DNA of 27,272 nucleotides, from positions 1-27,272 of IMG/VR virus record IMGVR_UViG_3300027796_000041. One strand, written 5' to 3'. The notes under the pieces are model-generated. The model was not told the origin of the DNA, searched no databases, and saw nothing but the letters and a program-made list of their open reading frames with translations. A program made the translations under genes and the position numbers. The first letter of the stretch is position 1, and each line of letters begins with the position of its first letter. Positions 6,887-8,697 of this stretch are shown in pieces. Source of the DNA: a virus.

Positions 6887-6910
6887 GCTGACACCTCCGA
6901 AAAGAGTATA

Positions 6911-6941
6911 AAAAAAGACGAAAACCGAAGTAATCGTCTTT
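6911..6941 (-). terminator. Intrinsic terminator of the HD-gene insertion, UUCG tetraloop
   Basis: On the minus strand an 8-base-pair stem (AAAGACGA with TCGTCTTT, 6934-6941 and 6914-6921) encloses a symmetric TT/TT interior loop and a C(UUCG)G tetraloop closed by A-U and C-G pairs. It is followed by a run of six T. This is a textbook intrinsic terminator. It lies after the HD gene and just before the DUF2577 ribosome site. Confidence 0.88.
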
Positions 6942-6974
6942 ATGTTATTATATTAAAATAAGGTTATTCATTTT

Positions 6975-7023
6975 CATTATGTTCATAATGGTAAATTCAG
7001 CTCATGCTTTGTTATAGCAAAGC
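6975..7023. repeat. Two short perfect inverted repeats after the HD gene
   Basis: CATTATG/CATAATG (6975-6981 and 6984-6990, 2-base spacer) and GCTTTG/CAAAGC (7006-7011 and 7018-7023, 6-base loop) lie between the HD-gene stop and the terminator. Neither is followed by a T run on the minus strand, so they do not look like extra terminators. They may stabilise the 3' end of the mRNA or mark an insertion junction. Confidence 0.4.
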
Positions 7024-7084
7024 TTATGGTACAAGTCTGTGATATTGATTATCCCACATTTGAATATAAAGATAGTGTCTAATG

Positions 7085-8233
7085 TTATTTTAGTTTATCA
7101 GCTAACCGCACTTTTACATATTTGGCAACCCATTCATCACTAATATCTTTAGGTTTCGGAAAATTGCATATTATTATTTCTTTGTCTTTGAATGAGAAAT
7201 TGATCTCTGTATCTCCTATTAACATATCTTTATTACACTCTTCAACTTTGAATTTATCCCACTCTTGTAATGTGTCTGCTACTTTTAATAGCCAAACAAA
7301 AGCGCTTCTATCCATACTGTAAATTCTGTTACATTCTTCGCAAGATAGACTTTTTGCTTTGTCAAGATTATGAAGTGCAATCGCATTTGCAACCTGAAGA
7401 ACAGATGTACCAAGAATCGACTTGTCCCATATTATGTGGCCGCCGCCGTAATTGGATTCAACTGTATCATGCTTTTCAAATTCCTCATACACCAGCCTTA
7501 GAAGCAACAGGGCACTAATTACACCATGATCAAAATAAATGTCATACTTTTCGCTTAAGCATTTTTCCCCAGTAACATCTTTTAAATCCATGCCAGTTAT
7601 TCTATTAAGATCACACAATAAGTTCTTTCCATCAAACTCCCAAAGTTTTTTAATTTCACATATAGATTTATTGTATTTTTTAAGTTGACTATTAACATAG
7701 CCGATTATTGCTTCTCGGTTATTTCCTAACAAAGATATTGCGTAGCTTAAATCATGGGAAAGAGCGGCCATACGCCAGCGGTATAGAAATTCTTTAGTTT
7801 CACTTCCACCTGAATACCTTATGTCATAGCTGATAGAATCACTTTCAACCGTTTTATTTTCTGTTGTATCCTGCATTTCCTGAGTTACTTTTTCTCTTAA
7901 GTATTCAAAATTACGGAATATATATAGCCCTAAAATGAAAACATTAACCGAATGAATGTAATGCTGCCTTTGCTTGTCTTTATTAGCATAGTCAACATTC
8001 TTTTCAAAAAAGTCCATCTGCGTCATTGACGGTGGCACAGCATCACCTTTATCATGAAATTCAAAAATTAAGTTTATTAATTCTTCAGCATGCTTTTCAA
8101 GTTTCTCATAACTTTTTGCTCCTAAAAAATCTTTTGATTTACTTTGAAACTCCTCTTGAAAATAATTGCTGTCGACAAAAGCAAATTCATGATTTTCTTC
8201 AATTGTTTTAATAAAATCGGCCTTTAACGCCAT
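7085..8233 (-). CDS. HD-domain metal-dependent phosphohydrolase, cargo (moron) gene
   Basis: The 382-residue protein shows the metal-binding series of the HD superfamily: His94 (YIHSVNV), His160-Asp161 (LSHDLSY), His236 (FDHGVIS), His288 (IALHNL) and Asp320 (KVADTLQEWD). The H-HD-H-H-D order fits a catalytic di-metal HD hydrolase that would cut a phosphate ester, possibly a nucleotide or cyclic nucleotide; the substrate cannot be told. I see no signal peptide or membrane segment. The ATG has AGAGGTGA 6 bases upstream. Base composition is clearly more AT-rich than in flanking tail genes, and the gene breaks the conserved xkdQ-xkdR order, so it is probably acquired cargo. A defence or host-fitness role is inference only. 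Confidence 0.75.
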   Translation of the reverse strand: MALKADFIKTIEENHEFAFVDSNYFQEEFQSKSKDFLGAKSYEKLEKHAEELINLIFEFHDKGDAVPPSMTQMDFFEKNVDYANKDKQRQHYIHSVNVFILGLYIFRNFEYLREKVTQEMQDTTENKTVESDSISYDIRYSGGSETKEFLYRWRMAALSHDLSYAISLLGNNREAIIGYVNSQLKKYNKSICEIKKLWEFDGKNLLCDLNRITGMDLKDVTGEKCLSEKYDIYFDHGVISALLLLRLVYEEFEKHDTVESNYGGGHIIWDKSILGTSVLQVANAIALHNLDKAKSLSCEECNRIYSMDRSAFVWLLKVADTLQEWDKFKVEECNKDMLIGDTEINFSFKDKEIIICNFPKPKDISDEWVAKYVKVRLADKLK

Positions 8234-8282
8234 GATTAATCACCTCTACAAGAATATTCGATATAATTTACTAAGGTATATG

Positions 8283-8330
8283 TGGATAATGCATCTGACA
8301 TTTCCAATTAGCCATTATATGGATAATGCA
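8283..8330 (-). promoter_or_regulatory. Repeat-flanked promoter-like site before the HD gene
   Basis: An 11-base direct repeat (minus strand TGCATTATCCA) occurs at 8320-8330 and 8283-8293, 37 bases apart start to start. A perfect TATAAT (8319-8314, minus strand) abuts the upstream copy, while the -35 position is weak (TTAGCC at 17 bases). The arrangement suggests operator half-sites around a transcription start near 8307. Promoter activity and binding protein are inferred. Confidence 0.4.
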
Positions 8331-8360
8331 AAGGTAGGCTAATGCTGCGTTATGATTATA

Positions 8361-8555
8361 TTATTTATCTGTAATTATTGTATACTTTTTTTTGCCGCTT
8401 AATAAACGCTCTTCTTTAGTGTAAATACCATCCGTATCCATTTTTTTCTCGTATGGACGCCCCTTCTTATCTACTCCTTGTTTGAACAAACCTTCTCTTT
8501 CGCGATGCACTGGTAAAATATTTTGCTCCACTGGGATTAATTCCTTCTTTTTCAC
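8361..8555 (-). CDS. Small charged protein of unknown function, upstream partner of the HD gene
   Basis: The 64-residue protein is not recognised. It is strongly charged and basic, with about one residue in four Lys or Arg, and carries a segment reading QGVDKKGRPYEKKMDTDGIYTKEE. No membrane segment, zinc site or helix-turn-helix is visible. It starts at GTG with GGGGG 8 bases upstream. It precedes the HD gene by 127 bases in the same AT-rich block and on the same strand. It could be a small partner, inhibitor or regulator of the HD protein, or an independent cargo gene; the sequence does not decide. Confidence 0.6.
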   Translation of the reverse strand: MKKKELIPVEQNILPVHREREGLFKQGVDKKGRPYEKKMDTDGIYTKEERLLSGKKKYTIITDK

Positions 8556-8697
8556 AAATTTTCCCCCTTATTATGTTTTTGAATTATTTACTCGCTTATT
8601 ACATCCAAATCCGTATATTATATAAACTAAGTAAACTTTATCTTTTGCATTATAATAAATATTTTACCACAAAATATTCCAAATGTCCATTGACATA

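Follow-up and report, generated by a model that had tools for sequence, protein, structure and literature searches.

Morons and regions of genomic plasticity are known in lambdoid and Mu-like phages (PMC4378225), and hotspots of anti-phage systems are known in P2-like and P4-like prophages (Rousset 2022, PMC9122126). Here we describe an interval in the tail operon of a group of Clostridia phages. Comparison of related loci shows that the xkdQ-xkdR junction of this group is, as far as can be read from sequence, a fixed moron slot that is refilled with unrelated genes. In the phage that we analysed, the slot is filled with a small charged protein (P64) and a putative HD-superfamily protein.

The xkdQ-xkdR interval in the window and its relatives

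The DNA analysed (the window) is a 27,272-base IMG/VR virus record with its tail operon on the minus strand. The left flank of the slot is xkdQ (8698..9639, minus strand; PF24032 YQBQ, 3.5e-38; PHROG 400 tail protein, 2.8e-58). The right flank is an xkdR-like DUF2577 gene (6620..6886, minus strand; PF10844, 7.7e-6; PHROG 579), followed by sheath initiator and baseplate J genes; these two, a Gp48-like gene and the tape-measure gene were identified with Pfam and PHROGs. A sequence-only reading of the window had placed 1.8 kb of AT-rich DNA between xkdQ and xkdR, encoding proteins of 64 and 382 residues, and this description was borne out. The GC content of the block is 0.30-0.37, compared with mostly 0.43-0.56 in the tail region, and the count of 19 G or C in 7681-7740 was exact. 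Both ORFs are intact: P64 (8361..8555, minus strand), a charged protein whose ORF starts with GTG and has a good RBS, and the 382-aa HD-motif protein (7085..8233, minus strand; motif H91, H94, H160-D161, D235-H236, H288 and D320). Their GC3 values are 0.34 and 0.28, respectively, against 0.47-0.62 for 16 other window genes. An Rfam scan of 6500-10600 gave no match above threshold.

The one P64 relative found is a chromosomal gene (L133:2503-2730) encoding a 75-aa protein with 57% identity over 44 aa. The two share the pattern F.QG.DK.GRP..KK.D..G.YTKEE and thus define a small conserved family, to which no function is assigned. P64 was considered as a dedicated partner of the HD-motif protein and rejected, because this only relative is chromosomal and has no HD gene nearby.

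XkdQ relatives were drawn from IMG/VR, from GTDB contigs and from a six-frame genome search, and xkdQ genes with at least 95% identity were collapsed, leaving 36 non-redundant loci with both flanks (window included). The slot is empty in 18 of these, with xkdQ and xkdR 2-64 bp apart. In the other 18 the two genes are separated by >250 bp; 17 of these intervals are cargo, and one (L052) was rejected as a cargo locus on finding that the insert extends XkdQ in frame at its C-terminus. The sequence-only reading had named fixation of the gene at this site in all relatives as evidence against a moron. That fixation is not seen, because unrelated genes recur at the site and the block is missing from the closest relatives.

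The 17 cargoes are mostly unrelated to one another. They include an RCC1 plus Cu-amine-oxidase-N protein (L003), a GNAT protein (L004), a Zn-ribbon protein (L006), an MMR_HSR1 GTPase with DUF697 (L009; a similar protein is present in L042), a MarR-like protein with an MFS protein (L010), a TIR_2 protein with a winged helix (wHTH) (L019; PADLOC bSEFIR, 6e-11), a DUF1643 protein (L045) and three small ORFs (L044). A Phd/YefM-like plus ParE-like pair (L172) and a CorC-like membrane protein (L162) were recognised by eye only, as were SIR2-like motifs in a 785-aa protein (L152) for which Pfam gave just a sub-threshold AAA_14 match. Several further cargoes have no recognisable identity, and many have no link to defence (MFS, GNAT, RCC1, Zn-ribbon). 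Judged as a hotspot of the P2/P4 type, the slot has the turnover (cargo at 17/36 loci), and its apparent defence content is by similarity only (the TIR protein of L019). One contig carries two related prophage-like tail regions, of which one (L046) has a slot with cargo on the opposite strand and the other (L048) an empty slot.

The sequence-only reading had proposed comparing related prophages with and without the block, and this comparison located the junctions, both at an empty site and in an exchange pair. The closest relative (L002; XkdQ 87% and TMP 96% identical to the window) aligns with the window at 87.9% identity up to the last xkdQ codons and at 85% from the xkdR start onward. It retains all the flanking genes and has, in place of the block, 64 bp with a weaker hairpin and T-run. 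By sequence, this is a direct empty site, and the 64 bp with its weaker hairpin is possibly a relic of cargo loss. A second relative (L029) also has 64 bp in the slot; in both, therefore, the block is absent from close relatives, as expected of a moron. The exchange pair (L042 and L044) consists of two prophage regions in a single MAG, with 89-91% identity across about 12 kb. Their homology stops about 57 bp past xkdQ, at the -10, and restarts about 60 bp ahead of xkdR, at the terminator; the genes between differ. Since it is solely the stretch from the -10 to the terminator that differs, both signals are part of the site itself, and what has been exchanged is the gene they enclose. Homologous recombination in the flanking tail genes or in the constant ends would be the simplest mechanism of such cargo exchange. 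With the block absent from the closest relatives, flanked by a promoter and a terminator, foreign in composition and located in a recurrent slot, its interpretation as a moron is strongly supported.

Two further features of the tail region were seen. Between the tape-measure and LysM genes, 10044-10428 resembles a type I toxin-antitoxin module. An ORF at 10188-10262 (minus strand), which has a promoter to itself, encodes the hydrophobic 24-aa peptide MRKYILRIFFLILIMLIAFTIKVK; on the opposite strand, a sigma70-type promoter with a perfect match (12/12; 10076-10104) would drive a predicted convergent antisense RNA. In three relatives (L002, L022 and L053) the two promoters are retained, as is a hydrophobic 24-aa peptide of diverged sequence. 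In a close relative (L028:8193-9597), a further 1.4 kb, containing broken IS91-like transposase ORFs (identified by eye), adjoins the module, again between the tape-measure and LysM genes. An interval of about 560-600 bp between LysM and xkdQ is present in L013, L018, L019, L023, L047, L048 and L050-L054, and is absent from the window.

Promoter and terminator of the slot

The slot promoter of the window (8661..8689, minus strand) has the -35 TGGACA, a 17 bp spacer and the extended -10 TGTGGTAAAAT. The slot terminator (6911..6941, minus strand) is a hairpin, AAAGACGA..CTTCGG..TCGTCTTTTTTT, followed by a T-run. Taken in the window alone, the two signals appear weak. For the promoter-like site, shuffles of its 130 bp give p = 0.01; promoter-like sites as such are no more numerous in this region of the window than expected by chance. 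The hairpin and T-run have -10.1 kcal/mol, with 0/100 shuffles equally strong, and a simple terminator scan of the window missed the 6941-6911 hairpin. What makes both signals convincing is their recurrence in relatives, each at the corresponding place.

A promoter-like site lies within 130 bp past xkdQ in 12 of the 13 same-strand cargo loci analysed (window included), each with a spacer of 16-17 bp and a -10 that is TG-extended or near consensus. In seven loci, including the window, the -35 begins exactly 12 bases past the last xkdQ codon. The shuffle p-value of the promoter is at most 0.025 in 11/13 loci; at L010 the promoter score equals chance within the interval, and just past the interval there is a TTGACA..TATAAT-like site. 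All 13 loci have a hairpin and T-run ahead of xkdR, usually AAGACGA..TTCG..TCGTCTT, with a shuffle p-value of at most 0.01 in 11 and of 0.06-0.09 in two. The stem sequence varies, and an exact-pattern terminator scan of IMG/VR gave no match. Slots of 2-11 bp are too short for a promoter or a terminator.

The sequence-only reading had given the block its own promoter and terminator. Both are present at the level of sequence, but the relatives assign them to the slot, and hence to the phage backbone, and not to the cargo. On this comparative evidence the promoter and terminator are backbone-borne, staying with the site while the cargo changes. Little sequence lies between the terminator and xkdR, with no obvious space for another promoter. 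Since the terminator stands ahead of the baseplate genes, late tail transcription would have to read through it or be antiterminated. The terminator might act as an attenuator for the baseplate genes; slots in which xkdQ and xkdR abut have none.

The HD-motif protein and its homologues

The Pfam HD profile (PF01966) scores 15.1 bits against the window protein, below the gathering score of 22, and 19.6 bits against its closest homologue. The protein belongs to no named family in PHROGs, PADLOC or NCBIfam. Neither it nor P64 matched a PADLOC model at E<=1, and no dGTPase family in Pfam or NCBIfam matched the HD-motif protein. Relatives are rare and came from six-frame genome searches only: none turned up in direct searches of phages, plasmids, IMG/VR and GTDB contigs, nor in searches of viral and plasmid collections with the alignment or with the closest homologue. 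That homologue (L085) is a standalone protein of 375 aa with 35% identity over 370 aa.

Among 17 aligned homologues, H91, H94, G102, W153, L158, H160, D161, Y164, D235, H236, A284, H288, L315, D320, Q323 and W325 are invariant. The H-HD-H-H-D pattern of the sequence-only reading is therefore real, being part of an invariant H..H/HD/DH/H/D motif. A RyR domain is present at the C-terminus of eight of the 17 aligned members (best E 2.8e-16) and absent from the window protein. Profile comparison gave a weak match to an HD-GYP-type set (P=0.0016) and was weak with ordinary PF01966 proteins, while a PDB profile search matched essentially RyR structures only, via the RyR part of the homologues. A single-sequence AlphaFold model was poor (pLDDT 37) and was discarded. 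The 17-sequence structure model has an all-helical core (pLDDT 70, pTM 0.79), and Foldseek found no match to it at E<=0.001. Structure prediction and fold search, suggested as a check by the sequence-only reading, thus did not confirm an HD fold. The H..HD..D metal-binding motif of the superfamily is present and the PF01966 match falls short of significance, so that the assignment is putative, drawing on the motif and on sub-threshold Pfam and profile matches.

Several homologues lie beside genes of defence type. In the chromosomal defence cluster of a Clostridia-type genome (L085), GajB (PADLOC, 4e-172), SIR2_2, DUF4238 and HD genes stand in a row. Elsewhere the HD gene adjoins, divergently, a full-length Drt1a (DRT1a) RT-nitrilase gene (L086), adjoins an LmuB-like/ABC-3C SMC-type gene (L087), or overlaps a ThsB-type TIR gene (L098). 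At four loci (L060, L061, L092 and L093) an HD-RyR gene is followed directly by a TIR+LRR gene, as identified by Pfam in L060, L092 and L093 and by similarity in L061. An HD-RyR gene adjoins a DUF4062/NACHT/TPR gene in L099, and a like NACHT-type neighbour was recognised by eye in L094. No recognised defence gene was found near the HD homologue at L062, L063 and L088-L091. Defence-type neighbours thus occur at ten of about fifteen homologue loci, a raw count, uncorrected for background, from loci that are not all independent, the TIR cases coming partly from close lineages. The HD-RyR/TIR(+LRR) and HD/ThsB-TIR pairs of Clostridia chromosomes look like an undescribed Thoeris-like system. We read the bacterial HD-RyR/TIR pairs best as a signalling immune system in which HD would be the enzyme.

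Possible role of the cargo and comparison with known systems

The most likely reading of the HD-motif protein, to which we give about an even chance, is that it is a prophage-expressed defence effector acting on nucleotides. A temperate lifestyle is suggested by relatives lying in bacterial contigs. A backbone promoter just past xkdQ and a backbone terminator just ahead of xkdR frame exchangeable genes, in this case P64 and the HD-motif protein. The slot promoter would be active in the repressed prophage, and the terminator would shield the baseplate genes from cargo transcription, with the late tail transcript reading through. When the lysogen is hit by another phage, the HD-motif protein, presumably a metal-dependent phosphohydrolase, would hydrolyse a nucleotide or a nucleotide-derived molecule, and infection by the other phage would be blocked, most likely via nucleotide depletion. 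A standalone prophage HD protein would be a simpler effector than the HD-RyR/TIR pairs, protecting the lysogen. The superinfection-defence role proposed by the sequence-only reading stands by association only, through the Gabija, DRT, LmuB-like, TIR/ThsB and NACHT neighbours of homologues and the TIR cargo of one slot. More tentatively, the slot may be a natural expression cassette whose constant ends guide exchange, and HD a phage-carried catalytic arm of an undescribed TIR/RyR-HD immune family built on nucleotide signals, acting alone as a nucleotide-depleting effector or a signal-destroyer.

Other roles can be weighed against the same observations. The slot may carry whatever aids the host, and HD would then serve lysogenic conversion or metabolism and have nothing to do with phage defence; the MFS+MarR, GNAT, RCC1 and Zn-ribbon cargoes fit this, but the defence-type genes beside ten of the about fifteen homologue loci examined make it rather unlikely. 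Homologues coupled to TIR and RyR parts, together with a window protein that has no TIR partner, could also point to a counter-defence enzyme that lacks both parts and destroys TIR/Thoeris-type or other host signal nucleotides, allowing the phage to escape immunity. That phage RyR-domain proteins degrade 2'/3'cADPR (PMC13232231) counts in favour of such an enzyme. We nevertheless consider it unlikely: the closest homologue lies in a bacterial defence cluster and not in a phage, no phage relatives were found, and having its own promoter within the late region suits prophage expression better than early infection.

A small charged gene followed by that of a putative enzyme, and the apparent Phd/ParE pair (by eye) in another slot, recall a toxin-antitoxin or addiction pair that would stabilise the prophage. 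P64 and HD are, however, about 130 bp apart, the P64 relative has no HD gene nearby and the HD homologues have no P64-like neighbour, leaving this very improbable. The location of the block inside the tail operon and on the same strand could mean a tail structural or assembly gene, or decayed tail DNA. Near relatives without the block keep all the flanking genes, both ORFs are intact with codon use unlike that of tail genes, and the homologues are bacterial and outside tail loci; we give this explanation scarcely any credence.

The HD-motif protein of the window can be compared with its nearest homologue, beside GajB, SIR2 and DUF4238, which is likewise standalone but sits in a chromosomal cluster and not in a phage tail slot. 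With Clover CloA and defence dGTPases (PMC12265719) it shares an HD-type metal motif and candidacy as a nucleotide-depletion effector; unlike CloA, it has no dGTPase match (Pfam, NCBIfam), and no CloB-type nucleotidyltransferase partner is seen in the block. The pairing of HD homologues with TIR/ThsB, or their fusion to RyR, recalls Thoeris (ThsB TIR plus effector) and RyR regulators (PMC13232231). Unlike in Thoeris, the block has no TIR gene and its HD-motif protein no RyR domain. To our knowledge, HD is not the described type of Thoeris effector. In the open-access literature we found neither this slot nor an HD-RyR/TIR system described, and the unnamed HD family with defence-type neighbours (TIR, RyR, Gabija, DRT, LmuB-like) is new, a candidate immune enzyme family that is not in the libraries searched.

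New, too, are the location of the slot within a Clostridia tail operon and the constant promoter and terminator with exchangeable content. Fixed signals around a changing gene make moron evolution directly testable, the xkdQ-xkdR interval is a simple place in which to look for accessory and defence genes of Clostridia prophages, and a terminator within a late tail operon raises a concrete question, as readthrough or antitermination is implied. Like the P2-like and P4-like hotspots, the slot is a locus of 1-5 kb that lies between conserved genes of the phage, shows high turnover and includes cargo that is defence-type by similarity; unlike them, it lies in the contractile-tail operon of Clostridia phages, and its cargo is smaller and appears only partly defensive. 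Like phage morons, it holds extra genes with a promoter and terminator between conserved genes, foreign in composition and missing in close relatives. It differs from them in its promoter and terminator, which stay in place as the cargo changes, as in the exchange pair.
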